A stretch of DNA of 64,000 nt from Bacteroidia bacterium. GTDB taxonomy: Bacteria > Bacteroidota > Bacteroidia > SpSt-205. The stretch's first letter is position 1. Each line of letters begins with the position of its first letter. The translations under genes were made by a program, and so were the position numbers. Location: the NCBI GenBank assembly GCA_026003215.1, contig BPGV01000001.1, forward strand, positions 919,001 to 983,000. The letters are read 5' to 3'. Under the pieces are notes generated by a model, which saw nothing but the letters and a program-made list of their open reading frames with translations, was not told where the DNA came from and ran no database searches. Shown piece after piece: positions 4,535 to 56,139 of this stretch.

Positions 4535-4542
4535 TACCTTTG
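4535..4542 (+). promoter_or_regulatory. -7 promoter box
   Basis: TACCTTTG, an exact consensus match, 4 bases before the ATG at 4547. Confidence 0.65.
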
Positions 4543-12569: not shown

Positions 12570-12573
12570 GGGC

Positions 12574-13182
12574 ATGCAAGGCCTGATTGTGACGGGCATT
12601 CACACCGATGCGGGAAAAACCGTAGTGGCGGCCGCCCTTACCGCAGGGTTAGGCTGGACCTATTGGAAACCCGTACAAACCGGCACGCCCACCGACAGCG
12701 AACGCTTGCAAGCCTATGGCCTGCCCACCCTACCCGAGCGCTACCGCCTCCAGCTACCTGCCGCCCCCCTTGTGGCCGCCCAAGCCGAAAATATTTCCAT
12801 AGACTGGACCTATCTCAGCAGCCCCCCTCCGCAAAGCCATATAATCATTGAAGGCGCCGGCGGCCTCTTTGTGCCCATTACCTCAAAGTATTTTATGATA
12901 GACCTTTTTGCCGCCTGGAAGCTCCCCCTGGTGCTGGTAGTGCGCCCCTACCTCGGCGCCATGAACCATACTTGGCTCTCCATAGAGGCTATCCAACGAC
13001 GGGGACTTCCCTTCCTCGGGATTATCTTATGTGGGACCACAGGCGATGTCAGTGAAACGTACTTCCGAGAAACTTTTTCTCCGCTGGGGGAAATCCCATG
13101 GGATCCCCAAGCTCATCCGATCGCTCTCTATCAGGAAAGCGGCTTAGCCGAAACACTCCCCCCTCTATTGGGACTGCGCTAA
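12574..13182 (+). CDS. bioD: Dethiobiotin synthetase
   Basis: ATP-dependent enzyme that closes the ureido ring of dethiobiotin, the penultimate step of biotin synthesis. The 202-residue protein has the P-loop-like GIHTDAGKTVVAAAL near residues 6-20, YWKPVQTGTPTDSE near 30-43 with the catalytic Lys, and IIEGAGGLFVPI near 91-102. It is a little shorter than the 220-230 residues common in the family but all core motifs are present. No other biotin gene is adjacent. Biotin would be needed by the AccB protein encoded at 62382-62888. Confidence 0.92.
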   Translation: MQGLIVTGIHTDAGKTVVAAALTAGLGWTYWKPVQTGTPTDSERLQAYGLPTLPERYRLQLPAAPLVAAQAENISIDWTYLSSPPPQSHIIIEGAGGLFVPITSKYFMIDLFAAWKLPLVLVVRPYLGAMNHTWLSIEAIQRRGLPFLGIILCGTTGDVSETYFRETFSPLGEIPWDPQAHPIALYQESGLAETLPPLLGLR

Positions 13183-16599: not shown

Positions 16600-16607
16600 C
16601 AAAGGTA
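16600..16607 (-). promoter_or_regulatory. -7 promoter box of the flippase gene
   Basis: Reads TACCTTTG on the minus strand, 16 bases before the ATG at 16583, a longer spacing than for most genes here. Confidence 0.55.
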
Positions 16608-16634
16608 ACGGCCTGCCCTTTGGCATAGAAGTTG

Positions 16635-16642
16635 TATATTTG
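16635..16642 (+). promoter_or_regulatory. -7 promoter box of tmRNA
   Basis: TATATTTG, 9 bases before the mature tmRNA 5' end at 16652. This non-coding gene gives an internal reference for where transcription begins after a box. Confidence 0.7.
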
Positions 16643-25791: not shown

Positions 25792-26846
25792 TAGGGCTAA
25801 ACCTCCTGTGGGGACAGGTCAAGTACAGCAATGAGTTTTTGAAGATTGGCGTAGGTGCGCGCGCTGCTGCCTTAGGCAACGCCCAAGTGGCCAGCAGCGA
25901 AGATGTCACCGCAGCTTATTGGAATCCCGCCGCCCTCCTCACGCTGCCCTCGTATCCCCAGCTGGCCCTCATGCATAGCGAATACTTCGCCAGCGTAGCC
26001 AAATACGACTATGGCGCCTTAGCCTTCCCTATCCAAGAAAATCGCCGCTTCGCCATAAGCTTTATACGGTTGGGGATTGACGACATCCCGAATACCCTCC
26101 GTTTTTATGATGGTTCCTCCTACGATTTTTCGCGCATCACCAAGTTTTCCGTGGCCGACATGGCTCTATATCTCTCCTATGCGCAACCGCTGCGCGATAC
26201 CACCCTCTCTATCGGCGGTTCTGTAAAGGTCATACACCGGGTCTTAGGACCATTTGCTACAGCGTGGGGATTTGGTCTGGACATGGGGCTCCTCTACCGA
26301 AAAGGACCTTGGCGCTTGGGAGCCGCCCTCTATGATGCGACCTCTACCTTCAACGCTTGGACCTTCAATACCGAAACCTTTGAAGAAGCCTTTCTCCTGA
26401 CAGGCAACGCTATCCCCCAAAACTCTATTGAATGGACCCGCCCCAGCGCTCGGATAGGCGCTGCTGTGCACTTGTGGCCAGAAAAACGCTTTTCGGTGGT
26501 GCCCACAGCCGATATGGTCATTTTCACAGATGGCCCCCGAAATACCCTTCTGCCCGGTCGTCCCCTTAGCGCTGACCTTAGCCTCGGTACCGAAGTGCGC
26601 TACCGCTCATGGGTAGCCCTCCGCATAGGCCTGACTAACTTCCAAAAAATGCGCCGCTGGGATGGCCGTTCGTACCTCACCTTCTACCCTACCGCAGGTA
26701 TAGGCATCCATGTATGGTACTTCACGATTGATTACGCCTTAGCGAACTTTACGGGGTTTTCGCAGGGGCTGTACTCCCATCTTATCTCGCTGCGGGTAGA
26801 TTTAGCGCCTACGCTTACTCGGCGTATTTTCGCTAAGGGCGGGTAA
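25761..26846 (+). CDS. PorV/PorQ-family outer-membrane protein
   Basis: A 361-residue outer-membrane barrel of the PorV/PorQ family, associated with the type IX secretion system, where PorV shuttles cargo to the cell surface. A signal peptide MYRWGALYSLIGLNLLWG precedes Gln. The family signature follows directly: LKIGVGARAAALGNAQVA near residues 27-44, then AYWNPAALL. The remainder is strand-rich. It starts within the end of the TPR-phosphatase gene, so the two are co-expressed. Whether it is the true PorV or a paralogue cannot be decided here. Confidence 0.82.
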   Translation: MYRWGALYSLIGLNLLWGQVKYSNEFLKIGVGARAAALGNAQVASSEDVTAAYWNPAALLTLPSYPQLALMHSEYFASVAKYDYGALAFPIQENRRFAISFIRLGIDDIPNTLRFYDGSSYDFSRITKFSVADMALYLSYAQPLRDTTLSIGGSVKVIHRVLGPFATAWGFGLDMGLLYRKGPWRLGAALYDATSTFNAWTFNTETFEEAFLLTGNAIPQNSIEWTRPSARIGAAVHLWPEKRFSVVPTADMVIFTDGPRNTLLPGRPLSADLSLGTEVRYRSWVALRIGLTNFQKMRRWDGRSYLTFYPTAGIGIHVWYFTIDYALANFTGFSQGLYSHLISLRVDLAPTLTRRIFAKGG

Positions 26847-28278
26847 TCCGCAAGGCTATCGGCGGCAAATACACCTCCTTGCACCCGTAGCGCAGACTCA
26901 CGATAGGCTGCACCACATAGAAACCGGGCTCGCCGTAGACGTGGGTTATTTCTTGTTCTTCGATGAAAGTGCCATTGCCCAAGTCCCAAACTACCTTTTC
27001 TATGGGGAATCCGCCTGCCCCCTCTATCCAAAAACGAATAGGCTGACCAGCCTTTTCTTTACCTGAGATTGCATCGGTACGCCCCCGCAGGGGCAAAGAG
27101 TCACAAGGTACAGCCCAGAGTTTCACGCCCCATGCATCTTTTCCTGTGGGTAAGTCCCCGAAGCGATTTTCTTTGGTTGCCATCAGAAGCCATTCTTTAC
27201 CGCCTACGGATAAGAAAGCCATGCCATACTCATCCTGAGGGCCGCCAAAGCCCCGTTCCCACAAGAGACGGCCTTCTGGCGAAAGAGCTGCAAGCCACAC
27301 ATCCTCACCGCCGCGCTGCTCCGCCACAGAAAGTTCATACCCATATTGCACCCCCACCCCATAAATCGTCCTGTCTACCCCCATCGCTAAGCCCAGGACC
27401 TTCCCCTTGAGGGGGCTGTGGTCCCAAACCTTTTCCCATACGACCCGCCCTTGCATATCCAGCATACTTACACCCCAGCGGTCCCCATACCGCCCCCCTA
27501 CAACAATCTGCCCAGCATTGGTGGGCAAGAGCGCAAAAAGCTGAGAAGGAAACCGATGAAACTGGAAAACCGTACGCCAATACACCTGTCCCAAATAGTC
27601 CACCCCAGCCACAAAAGGCTTATAGCTTTCTTCCCCTATGCAGGCATAGTAGGAAGTGCCCGGCAGCGGACGTATGCGTCGCAGGAGGCTGGGGGCCTTA
27701 CCCCAACGCCGCATTTGCAGCACTTCCCCTGTTTGCGCTTGGATGACCTGAATCACCGCTTGCATGCCTACTGCAGGCTCCTCCCACGAAACGCCCGCCA
27801 CCAACAAGGTACGATAAGGGGTAGTACATATCGACAGGGCCATATCTATGTAGGGGCTGCCCCAGCGCTTCTGCCAAAGAAGGCGGCCGGTATGCTTCTC
27901 TACCGCCCCCACCCAAAAGTCGGCCCTACGCTCCACGGGGAGTTCCTCCGGGTGGCTGAGGGCAGAACCGCTCGCCCCACAGAAATACACCACACTATCT
28001 TGCACATACAGGTCCTCTATCCGGTCCGGCCCCATTCCCCCCGGTGTGAGCTGCCAAATCACCTCCCCAGCCGAGTTAATCGCCCCTATCCACCCATCCG
28101 GGAGGGACTCCTTCGTGGGGAGGACATACCCCCCTATAAACACTTGACCTCCTTCATCTACGATCGCTACCGTGGGGATTTGCTCGCCCGCTCCCCCCAC
28201 AAAAAACTGGCGCTCCCGCAGCAAATAATACCCCTGTGCCCACAAAAGCCCCCCTAAAAAGCATAGCAGCTGGCGCAC
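26833..28278 (-). CDS. Exported beta-propeller protein with C-terminal PKD domain
   Basis: A 481-residue exported protein. The GTG-started signal peptide VRQLLCFLGGLLWA precedes Gln. Residues about 20-385 show repeated blocks of the type VFIGGYVL, GRLLWQKRWG, GRVVWEKVW and GRLLWERGFGG, each ending in Trp-rich strands, as in quinoprotein-like or WD-like propellers. Residues about 395-478 resemble a PKD domain, with VVWDLGNGTFIEEQEITHVY and PGFYVVQPIVSLRYGC. It lacks an obvious T9SS sorting domain. The role is unknown; surface binding is possible. Its 3' end overlaps the PorV/PorQ-like gene by 14 bases, tail to tail. Confidence 0.7.
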   Translation of the reverse strand: MRQLLCFLGGLLWAQGYYLLRERQFFVGGAGEQIPTVAIVDEGGQVFIGGYVLPTKESLPDGWIGAINSAGEVIWQLTPGGMGPDRIEDLYVQDSVVYFCGASGSALSHPEELPVERRADFWVGAVEKHTGRLLWQKRWGSPYIDMALSICTTPYRTLLVAGVSWEEPAVGMQAVIQVIQAQTGEVLQMRRWGKAPSLLRRIRPLPGTSYYACIGEESYKPFVAGVDYLGQVYWRTVFQFHRFPSQLFALLPTNAGQIVVGGRYGDRWGVSMLDMQGRVVWEKVWDHSPLKGKVLGLAMGVDRTIYGVGVQYGYELSVAEQRGGEDVWLAALSPEGRLLWERGFGGPQDEYGMAFLSVGGKEWLLMATKENRFGDLPTGKDAWGVKLWAVPCDSLPLRGRTDAISGKEKAGQPIRFWIEGAGGFPIEKVVWDLGNGTFIEEQEITHVYGEPGFYVVQPIVSLRYGCKEVYLPPIALRITRP

Positions 28279-28282
28279 TCGG

Positions 28283-28290
28283 CAAATCTA
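28283..28290 (-). promoter_or_regulatory. -7 promoter box of the propeller gene
   Basis: Reads TAGATTTG on the minus strand, 4 bases before the GTG start at 28278. Confidence 0.65.
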
Positions 28291-28293
28291 CGA

Positions 28294-28301
28294 TAGCTTT
28301 G
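28294..28301 (+). promoter_or_regulatory. -7 promoter box of bshB1
   Basis: TAGCTTTG, 7 bases before the ATG at 28309 and just 3 bases from the opposite-facing box of the propeller gene. Confidence 0.65.
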
Positions 28302-28308
28302 TGCGCTC

Positions 28309-29010
28309 ATGGGTAGGATAGTTATGGCCATAATGGCCCATCCCGATGATGCGGAGCTTAGCTGTGGGGGCACCCTCCTACGCTGGCAAGCCGAAGGGGC
28401 TGAGATTGTGCTGGTAGACCTTACCGCCGGCCAACTGGGCACCCGTGGCAACGCCGCCCTCCGCTATAAAGAAGCGCAAGCGGCTGCCCGCATCCTGAGA
28501 CCCCTCGCCCGCCTCTGCCTCGGATGGGAAGATGGCTTCTTCGCAGACACCCCCGCCACTCAACGGGAACTCATCCGCCTTTTACGGCAATACCGCCCGC
28601 ATATCGTGCTTACGAATGCCCTACATGACCGCCACCCGGACCACGGACGAGCCGCACGCCTGGTAGAAAAAGCCGCTTTCCTGAGCGGTCTGCGTCGCAT
28701 TTCTACAGAGTATCCCCCCTTCCGCCCCCAAAAACTCCTCTTTGCTATCCAAGACCGCTGGCAAACCCCCTCCCTCGTAGTAGATATTACCCCCTTTTGG
28801 GAGAAAAAACTGGAGCTGATTGCCGCCTACTCCAGCCAGTTTTTTGTCAAACCCAACGACCCCGATCCCCCTTCTTACCTCACCCGCTCTACCTTCTTTC
28901 CCCACTTAGAGGCCCGCGCCCGCGAAATGGGCCACTTCATCGGGGTGCCTTTCGGAGAAGGCTTCGTGTCGCGGGCCCCCCTCGCCGCGCCCCCTTTCCC
29001 GTACCTCTAA
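28309..29010 (+). CDS. bshB1: Bacillithiol biosynthesis deacetylase BshB1
   Basis: A 233-residue zinc-dependent LmbE-family deacetylase that removes acetate from GlcNAc-malate in bacillithiol synthesis, a thiol cofactor of Bacteroidota and Firmicutes. The zinc site is visible as MAHPDDAELSCGGTL near residues 9-23 and HDRHPDHGRAARLVEKAAF near 105-123. LTAGQLGTRGN near 38-48 and the C-terminal HFIGVPFGEGF match BshB1 rather than sugar-lactam deacetylases. The next gene, a Fur-type regulator, has its own -7 box. Other bsh genes are not in this window. Confidence 0.92.
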   Translation: MGRIVMAIMAHPDDAELSCGGTLLRWQAEGAEIVLVDLTAGQLGTRGNAALRYKEAQAAARILRPLARLCLGWEDGFFADTPATQRELIRLLRQYRPHIVLTNALHDRHPDHGRAARLVEKAAFLSGLRRISTEYPPFRPQKLLFAIQDRWQTPSLVVDITPFWEKKLELIAAYSSQFFVKPNDPDPPSYLTRSTFFPHLEARAREMGHFIGVPFGEGFVSRAPLAAPPFPYL

Positions 29011-29032
29011 AGGCACTCCCCCAAAACTTGTT

Positions 29033-29040
29033 TATATTTG
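29033..29040 (+). promoter_or_regulatory. -7 promoter box of the fur-like gene
   Basis: TATATTTG, 4 bases before the GTG start at 29045. Confidence 0.65.
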
Positions 29041-29044
29041 TGCA

Positions 29045-29527
29045 GTGTCTCCTCCTGCAGTGACCCAACAGGCCCAAGATATATTAGAAGCGTATCTTTC
29101 TCAAAAGGGCCTCCGCCGCACCGAAGAAAGACGCCACATCCTACAAGCTATCTATGAAGAGCTTTCGCATTTTGATGCAGATACTTTACACAGGCACCTA
29201 ACCCAAAAGGGCCTCCGCATAAGTCGAGCCACCGTCTACAATACGCTGGACCTTTTAGTGGAATGCGGCTTGGTCAAACGCTATCATTTCAGCGAAGGGC
29301 CTACCCTCTACGAACGCAGCTTAGGCCGGCGGCAGCATGACCACCTCTTATGCTTAGACTGCGGAGATATACACGAGTTTTGCGACCCCCAGCTTGGCCC
29401 TATCATAGAAGGGGTAGCCCAGCTTTTCCAGATGCGTCCCACCCGCCACGAACTCATTATTTATGCCCACTGTACCAAAACGCACTGCCCAAACCGCACC
29501 AAAAATCCTACCTTTGCCACAAAATGA
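29045..29527 (+). CDS. Fur-family transcriptional regulator
   Basis: A 160-residue metal- or peroxide-sensing repressor of the Fur/PerR family. The winged-helix half carries GLRRTEERRHILQAIYE near residues 20-36 and SRATVYNTLDLLVECGLV near 60-77, the recognition helix. The dimerisation half has the metal motif HDHLLCLDCGDIHEFCDP near 99-116 and a second Cys pair in HCTKTHCP near 141-148. These fit either Fur or PerR; the sequence does not settle the signal. It starts with GTG, and its stop overlaps the next gene as ATGA. Confidence 0.9.
   Translation: MSPPAVTQQAQDILEAYLSQKGLRRTEERRHILQAIYEELSHFDADTLHRHLTQKGLRISRATVYNTLDLLVECGLVKRYHFSEGPTLYERSLGRRQHDHLLCLDCGDIHEFCDPQLGPIIEGVAQLFQMRPTRHELIIYAHCTKTHCPNRTKNPTFATK
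29509..29516 (+). promoter_or_regulatory. Possible -7 promoter box for the STAS gene
   Basis: TACCTTTG inside the end of the fur-like gene, 7 bases before the STAS ATG, which would let the STAS gene be expressed separately. Confidence 0.5.
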
Positions 29528-49993: not shown

Positions 49994-50001
49994 CAAAGGT
50001 A
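49994..50001 (-). promoter_or_regulatory. -7 promoter box of the hydroxyacyl-CoA dehydrogenase gene
   Basis: Reads TACCTTTG on the minus strand, 4 bases before the ATG at 49989. Confidence 0.65.
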
Positions 50002-50021
50002 CCCTACCCGGCGGTATAGGC

Positions 50022-50029
50022 TATTTTTG
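50022..50029 (+). promoter_or_regulatory. -7 promoter box of tdk
   Basis: TATTTTTG, 5 bases before the ATG at 50035. Confidence 0.62.
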
Positions 50030-54701: not shown

Positions 54702-54726
54702 GGTGAAGTTTTGTTCCAAATCCTGT

Positions 54727-56139
54727 ATGCGCACCCTTCTGGGCAATGTAGTTGTGGCCGTGGTGGCCAGTCTTACGACTTGGTGGATCATACGGAAAAA
54801 GGACACGGGTTCTCCCCTCCCTCCTTCCCCGGCTTATATCCAACCCGCTAAGTGGGACATTCACCCTCCGGTGGATTTCACGGTAGCTGCGCAAATAGCC
54901 ATGCCGGCCGTAGTCCATATCCGCACCCGGGGGAACGCCGATATGCCGGCTTTTCATCGCTTTTTCCTGCCTGATGAAGAAGAGGACGGGGGCTTCATCC
55001 AAGGCACAGGCTCTGGCGTGATCATCCGCCCCGAAGGTTATATCGTAACTTGCAACCACGTGATTGAAAACGCCTCCCAAATCCAAGTCACCCTCTACGA
55101 TAACCGTTCCTTTCGGGCCAGCGTGGTGGGAACTGACCCCTCTACTGACTTAGCCCTCCTCAAGATAGAGGCGGAAGGGTTACCCTACATAGAGTTCGGC
55201 GACTCCGACCAACTGCGGGTAGGGGATTGGGTCTTAGCCGTAGGGAATCCTTTTAACCTCACTTCCACGGTCACAGCGGGCATCGTGAGCGCTAAGGGAC
55301 GCACCTTAGGTCTTTTGAAGGAAAAGTTCCGCGTAGAGTCGTTTATCCAGACAGATGCCGCCGTAAATCCCGGCAATAGCGGAGGCGCCTTAGTGAATAT
55401 TGAAGGCAAGCTCGTAGGCATAAATACCGCTATTGCCTCCATGACGGGGACTTTCGCGGGATATTCTTTTGCTGTGCCCGCCAATATCGCCAAAAAAGTC
55501 GTAGAGGACTTACGCCAATACGGAAAAGTACAGAGAGCGCTCCTCGGCGTTATGATAGAACCGCTCACCCCCGAAAAGCAAAAGGAGGTCGAAATCCCCG
55601 TCTCACAAGGGGCCTATATAGCGGATGTCTATGGTGGAAGTGCTGCCGAAGAAGCCGGCCTCCGATCCGGCGATGTCATCGTAGAAATAGAAGGCAAGCC
55701 TATACACAGCCCAGCCGAACTGACAGAAATCATTGCCCGCCACCGGCCAGGTGATAGAGTACGGGTGGTCTATTACCGTGGGCAAGAACGAAGAGAAGTG
55801 ACTGTTCGCCTCAAAGGACGTTCTTCAGAGGAAACAGAGGAAAGCACGGCTTCAGGGCATAGCTACCTCAAACAGTTGGGCGCCCAAGTGCGTCCGATTA
55901 CCGCCGCCGAGAAAAAAGAGTTGGGTGTTGCTCATGGGCTGAAAGTGATAGAAGTACGACCCGGACCGCTCCAAGAAGCTGGCGTGCGCCCAGGCTTCGT
56001 CATCACCCACATAGATAGACGCCCCGTCTCTACCCCCCAAGAAGCTGAAGAGGTACTCAACGGCATAGAAGGCGGCCTTCTGATAGAAGGGCTCTATCGT
56101 AAAGGAGAAAAAGCGTATTACGCCATCTCTACCGAATAA
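54727..56139 (+). CDS. HtrA/DegP-type serine protease with two PDZ domains
   Basis: A 470-residue envelope protease and chaperone. An N-terminal anchor (MRTLLGNVVVAVVASLTTWW) is followed by a trypsin-like domain: ITCNHVIENASQIQV-like segment YIVTCNHVIENAS with the catalytic His, STDLALLKIEAEGLP with Asp, and NPGNSGGALVNIEGK with Ser in GNSGG. Two PDZ domains follow, with AEEAGLRSGDVIVEIEGKP near residues 304-322 and GPLQEAGVRPGFVITHIDRR near 416-435. It begins the htrA-sucA-sucB-gldA run. The GTG at 54703 is an alternative start. Confidence 0.92.
   Translation: MRTLLGNVVVAVVASLTTWWIIRKKDTGSPLPPSPAYIQPAKWDIHPPVDFTVAAQIAMPAVVHIRTRGNADMPAFHRFFLPDEEEDGGFIQGTGSGVIIRPEGYIVTCNHVIENASQIQVTLYDNRSFRASVVGTDPSTDLALLKIEAEGLPYIEFGDSDQLRVGDWVLAVGNPFNLTSTVTAGIVSAKGRTLGLLKEKFRVESFIQTDAAVNPGNSGGALVNIEGKLVGINTAIASMTGTFAGYSFAVPANIAKKVVEDLRQYGKVQRALLGVMIEPLTPEKQKEVEIPVSQGAYIADVYGGSAAEEAGLRSGDVIVEIEGKPIHSPAELTEIIARHRPGDRVRVVYYRGQERREVTVRLKGRSSEETEESTASGHSYLKQLGAQVRPITAAEKKELGVAHGLKVIEVRPGPLQEAGVRPGFVITHIDRRPVSTPQEAEEVLNGIEGGLLIEGLYRKGEKAYYAISTE

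Follow-up and report, generated by a model that had tools for sequence, protein, structure and literature searches.

In the window (the whole stretch of DNA analyzed here, 64,000 nucleotides in length), two divergently oriented genes are separated by only 30 bases (28279–28308), bordered by the GTG start codon of one gene at 28278 on the minus strand and by the ATG start codon of the other at 28309 on the plus strand. This arrangement raises the question of whether promoters packed so tightly act as a switch between both genes, as was proposed in the initial annotation of the region, or whether they represent two transcription units sharing little space. The second reading is well favored by our analysis: the interval most probably holds two separate, back-to-back promoters of the primary-sigma class that are independent of each other at basal level, with their close packing being a by-product of a leaderless promoter style.

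The divergent interval and its conservation

The gene on the minus strand (26833–28278, GTG start) encodes a propeller/PKD protein of 481 amino acids featuring a PKD domain (Pfam PF00801, E-value 1.3e-05) and a PQQ_2 match under the Pfam cut-off; no match to it was found in NCBIfam. Based on a reading of its N-terminus, the protein appears to be secreted. The gene on the plus strand (28309–29010) represents bshB1, encoding the bacillithiol biosynthesis deacetylase BshB1 (233 amino acids; PIG-L, PF02585), which scored 236 bits against the NCBIfam model TIGR04001 and thus above the cut-off of 182.5. BshB1 was matched in 39 out of the 40 genomes searched (E ≤ 0.001, own genome included, one match being marginal), and genome G001, featuring no bshB1 match, lies outside the conservation figures given below. 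Further bacillithiol genes, namely bshA (408.7 bits) and bshC (273.1 bits, counted together with its frame neighbours), were found in the genome. A literature search for bshB1 promoters in Bacteroidetes returned no match.

Within the 30 bases, the −7 element TAnnTTTG, known as the core of Bacteroidetes primary-sigma (sigma-ABfr) promoters, occurs on both strands. The box assigned to the propeller gene, TAGATTTG, is located at 28283–28290 on the minus strand (the forward strand reading CAAATCTA) and ends 4 nt before the GTG, and the box assigned to bshB1, TAGCTTTG, is located at 28294–28301 on the plus strand and ends 7 nt before the ATG. Both are separated by the 3-bp gap CGA (28291–28293), in agreement with the letters and positions of two −7 boxes three bases apart given in the initial annotation. 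A sigma-70-type scan of 27800–29200 yielded a single weak site (29104–29076), which is irrelevant to the Bacteroidetes primary-sigma class. The next two genes after bshB1 each possess a TAnnTTTG of their own: the box at 29033–29040 is located 4 nt before the start of a gene that reads as a Fur-like regulator, and the box at 29509–29516, lying within the final part of the preceding gene, 7 nt before the start of a gene that reads as STAS-like.

In all ten genus members possessing bshB1 (the own genome and nine others), a propeller orthologue lies divergently beside the gene, its product being 51–61% identical in the nine other members and 46% identical in the sister genus (G011). The Bacteroidia MAGs of this genus (e.g., KatS3mg026 and the SKYB series) presumably originate from hot springs. 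Comparison of the propeller protein with 100 further bshB1 loci (flanks of up to 1.5–2.5 kb), which could miss more distant propeller relatives, resulted in six matches, all of them copies of known genus members.

Both boxes were present in every one of the ten genus members. The core letters (TA and TTTG) of the minus box were identical in 10/10 members and its NN bases were 81% identical, and all eight letters of the plus box, NN included, were identical in 10/10. Third positions in 11 fourfold codons of invariant BshB1 residues were, by comparison, only 25% identical and therefore saturated. Both boxes are almost certainly working promoters, since their core letters were retained while silent sites became saturated, and the values obtained for the cores and the plus-strand NN bases (100%), the minus-strand NN bases (81%), and the fourfold sites (25%) point to strong selection on the boxes while silent sites turned over. 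Five of the members have a 3-bp gap between the boxes, four have 4 bp, and one has 6 bp. The sister genus keeps the pair with a 3-bp gap, featuring TAGCTTTG on the propeller side and TACCTTTG on the bshB1 side.

The fixation of the NN bases deserves separate consideration. Both focal boxes carry G as the first N, fixed on both strands in 10/10 genus members, and this base was found in only 7 out of 60 boxes sampled from 292 kb (the window plus 19 further stretches). In Flavobacterium johnsoniae promoters, unlike in the focal boxes, G has been described as virtually absent at the N positions (PMC6847099). At L180, another closely spaced pair in the genome, the ten loci with upstream sequence differ in the NN bases of the plus box. 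NN conservation at the focal boxes may hence exceed what promoter function alone needs. One explanation would be that the inverted repeat formed by the boxes also serves as an operator for a regulator of both genes, a live but minor rival to which we assign a small probability. TAGC is invariant on the plus strand in 10/10 members, a C directly follows CAAANCTA in 10/10, and an inner CTAC...GTAG symmetry is present in 7/10, as would be expected for an operator. However, the sister genus features TACC in place of TAGC at bshB1, and a gap varying between 3 and 6 bp would change how the two halves of an operator are phased. Moreover, no plus-strand TAnnTTTG was found within 300 nt ahead of either the bshA or the bshC match; a box shared with these genes was thus not seen, and a common bacillithiol regulon signal was rejected as well.

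Predicted transcription starts and upstream contacts

For the probable promoters of F. johnsoniae, a spacing of 4–5 nt between the −7 box and the transcription start was reported (PMC6847099), and the starts at the focal locus were predicted from this spacing. For the propeller gene, the predicted start (box end plus 4 nt) is position 28278 on the minus strand, which is the first base of the GTG; for bshB1, it is 28306–28307 on the plus strand (box end plus 4–5 nt), which would leave 2–3 nt of leader. The propeller mRNA is accordingly predicted to be leaderless, starting at or within one base of the GTG, with the box being placed just where a start at the start codon would require it. By eye, the distance from this box to the start codon (GTG or ATG) is 4 nt in nine and 5 nt in two of the 11 family loci. 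The bshB1 mRNA is predicted to be near-leaderless, with a leader of about 0–4 nt; its box is located 5–8 nt before the ATG in the ten genus members, and an in-frame GTG is found 4 nt past the box in G011. The predicted minus-strand start is located one base outside 28279–28308, and, hence, the refutation proposed in the initial annotation, namely start sites mapping outside this interval, is a fragile one.

An in-frame ATG at 28324, conserved in 10/10 genus members, would lengthen the bshB1 leader to approximately 17 nt if it were the true start. However, BshB1 residues 4 and 5, which precede this ATG, are restricted to V, I, or L across the ten members, and this pattern favors the earlier start at 28309.

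As another consequence of the narrow spacing, the initial annotation placed any upstream promoter contacts inside the opposite coding sequence. This was correct with regard to position, as the predicted −33 regions fall near 28273 and 28311, although no specific contact is visible there: neither TTG nor TTTG was found 12–27 bp upstream of either focal box. Likewise, no −33 element appeared in the logo of the 60 sampled boxes located 3–8 nt before a start (292 kb). Because the focal boxes and the sampled promoters both lack this element, no specific upstream contact appears to be squeezed into the codons. The −33 element was not treated as defining for the promoter class, since it is missing from the sampled boxes too and far less apparent in F. 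johnsoniae. The focal locus resembles F. johnsoniae in this weak or absent −33 element and in a box placed such that the 4–5 nt spacing would reach the start codon; it differs in that its boxes abut the start codons, whereas leaders over 10 nt were reported there for 87% of the predicted transcripts with a probable promoter (PMC6847099).

The near inverted repeat CAAATCTA-CGA-TAGCTTTG could also be taken for a single bidirectional promoter as described by Warman and colleagues, in which one shared, symmetrical −10-type element fires in both directions. Nevertheless, the two boxes have no bases in common: they are complete and non-overlapping in 10/10 genus members, and the gap between them varies from 3 to 6 bp. 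In addition, the divergent starts are predicted to be about 28–30 bp apart, compared to the spacings of 10, 18, and 23 bp that are common at bidirectional promoters of Escherichia coli, where small variations are allowed (PMC12825309). A single shared element is regarded as very unlikely.

Returning to two separate promoters, the minus promoter would start a leaderless propeller/PKD mRNA and the plus promoter a bshB1 mRNA with a very short leader. With the box directly before the start codon and an upstream element lacking, about 30 bp would suffice for a divergent pair: 8 bp for each box, 4–8 nt for each start region, and a few bases between.

Box placement across the family

The placement of the focal boxes is repeated throughout the genome. 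In the 292-kb sample, TAnnTTTG ended 0–9 nt before a candidate start in 62 out of 208 script-called genes, compared to two for the reversed motif. Among 71 boxes counted, 33 were located exactly 4 nt before a start and four beyond 12 nt; distances were taken to the nearest candidate start and are biased towards short values, a bias that would not produce a peak at the single distance of 4 nt. The home-made gene caller misses genes (208 called in 292 kb), and it placed the bshB1 start at 28324; the intergenic lengths derived from it (29 divergent pairs) are rough. Within the window, examples of TAnnTTTG close to starts, mostly at exactly 4 nt, are found at 4535, 12562, 13189, 20454, and 50001.

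Counts of TANNTTTG-N4-ATG (both strands summed) exceeded the control about 8- to 95-fold in 12/12 family genomes, with 223 vs. 16 in the own genome (G000), 178 vs. 23 in the lowest (G009), and 190 vs. 2 in the highest (G007). The order-mate G012, represented by one genome of 77% completeness, reached 50 vs. 39 (1.3-fold). Among 47 other members of the class (G013–G059), 40 remained under about 2.6-fold. G051 showed 356 vs. 75; G020 reached 11-fold, within the family range, on small counts (32 vs. 3); and G028, G031, G040, G059, and G029 were roughly 3- to 4-fold enriched, the last on 12 vs. 4. G051, G020, G028, G031, G040, and G059 are perhaps separate leaderless lineages. Since the box is mostly located a few bases, and often exactly 4, before the starts, the family appears to be leaderless by default and is perhaps not alone in its class. 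The −7 box of the family would thus normally precede the start codon by about 4 nt, without a visible −33 element.

This would set the family apart from those Bacteroidetes that have been measured, which possess the same −7 box and use few leaderless mRNAs. For Bacteroides thetaiotaomicron, about 3.7% of the 5′ UTRs were reported to be under 10 nt, and for Flavobacterium psychrophilum, a fraction of 5.5% was given, the leaderless fraction measured in F. johnsoniae being low as well; by analogy, these low fractions argue against the leaderless reading. Leaderless genes of Deinococcus-Thermus and Actinobacteria resemble those predicted for the family in that the promoter box of many genes is found shortly ahead of the start codon; they differ in the box itself, as the underlying survey sought Pribnow-like boxes and the family features TAnnTTTG (PMC3160421). 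In that survey, 1 out of 37 Bacteroidetes/Chlorobi genomes was scored, and the search for Pribnow-like boxes was named as a limit for Bacteroidetes (PMC3160421). Among the literature matches listed for leaderless and divergent promoters, Bacteroidetes, and TAnnTTTG, there was no earlier report of the family's promoter style, and the matches listed for leaderless use in hot-spring Bacteroidota were off topic.

Compared to the switch, which is a minor possibility, the family's promoter style, compact and apparently leaderless, is a more interesting result. Bacteroidetes were described to lack Shine-Dalgarno sequences (PMC6847099), and, if RNA mapping agrees, the family would offer a natural system for studying how ribosomes of this kind cope with leaderless mRNA and how sites are divided among polymerases at many overlapping divergent promoters.

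Head-to-head pairs and possible polymerase exclusion

To what extent the focal pair is exceptional became apparent from the whole genome (2.27 Mb), in which CAAANNTA-N(0–30)-TANNTTTG identified 72 head-to-head pairs, compared to two for the reversed-pattern control. Considering ORFs of at least 60 amino acids and starts within 12 nt of a box, 49 of the 72 pairs had starts on both sides, 18 on one side, and five on neither. Gaps ranged from 1 to 30 bp, measuring exactly 3 bp in two pairs, up to 3 bp in six, and up to 6 bp in twelve, eight of these twelve having starts on both sides. A special 3-bp spacing was therefore rejected, as the gaps are spread over the whole range with no peak at 3. An excess of head-to-head pairs was present in 12/12 family genomes (31–72 pairs vs. 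0–4 for the control). The bshB1/propeller pair is not special in this respect, dozens of similar pairs being present in the genome. The window itself contains further head-to-head pairs at 1651–1683 (gap of 17 bp), 16600–16642 (27 bp), and 49994–50029 (20 bp), with the second of these lacking a start inside 12 nt on either side.

The tail-to-tail order occurred at 20 places in the genome (control, one); among the seven places checked, starts were found on both sides in none and on one side in three, and tail-to-tail boxes as a second promoter class were rejected on present evidence.

Conservation differs between the tight pairs, as deduced from two further examples. At L180, two boxes were kept in 8 out of 11 loci, 2–5 bp apart, the other three loci comprising two without a minus box under the strict pattern and one without upstream sequence. 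Some others are poorly kept, such as L179, where two boxes were retained in 3 out of 12 loci, one of these with a 32-bp gap.

At the focal locus, the upstream contact zone of either promoter extends over the opposite box and into the initial codons of the opposite gene, and for this reason two polymerases could not plausibly sit there together; considering the size and geometry of RNA polymerase, simultaneous binding is probably excluded on steric grounds. In this regard, the locus resembles the bidirectional promoters of E. coli, where divergent starts are likewise close enough for such exclusion, and differs from them in possessing two complete, non-overlapping boxes with starts predicted 28–30 bp apart (PMC12825309).

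From this geometry, the initial annotation had derived a possible mutually exclusive firing of the propeller gene and bshB1, and the overlap might have been conserved for that very reason. The retention of boxes 3–6 bp apart in 10/10 genus members and 3 bp apart in the sister genus would be in line with such a switch, as would the finding at E. coli bidirectional promoters that one direction, if substantially activated, could repress RNA from the other (PMC12825309). However, at none of the five E. coli promoters tested did basal transcription reach a level at which polymerases would compete (PMC12825309), L180 keeps its boxes just as closely spaced, and the arrangement is one of dozens, which suggests a general cause, i.e., starts beside the box and short divergent spacers, instead of a dedicated switch. 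Mutually exclusive firing is consequently not supported, and a switch maintained by selection is regarded as very unlikely. Since activation can repress the opposite RNA in E. coli, exclusion under strong activation of one direction is possible at the locus. Mutual help of the two promoters via negative supercoiling is also conceivable.

In view of the absence of basal competition at the E. coli promoters, the locus is best read as two independent promoters. Both genes would probably be transcribed independently at basal levels, with a single polymerase occupying the site at any time; strong activity in one direction would be needed for competition to have an effect. The locus would then be a well-conserved case of tight promoter packing between divergent genes, which is commonplace in this compact genome and belongs to its unusual promoter style. 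A more far-reaching interpretation, which we consider unlikely yet conceivable, assumes that the shift to leaderless transcription pressed dozens of divergent promoters together, with polymerase exclusion becoming a genome-wide means of controlling expression level and noise; the bshB1/propeller pair, with most of its NN bases fixed across the genus, would in that case be actively kept by selection.

At 12573–12603 and 54726–54734 in the window, the called 5′ ends of divergent genes overlap, these start calls being uncertain, and a promoter box may be located within the opposite gene.
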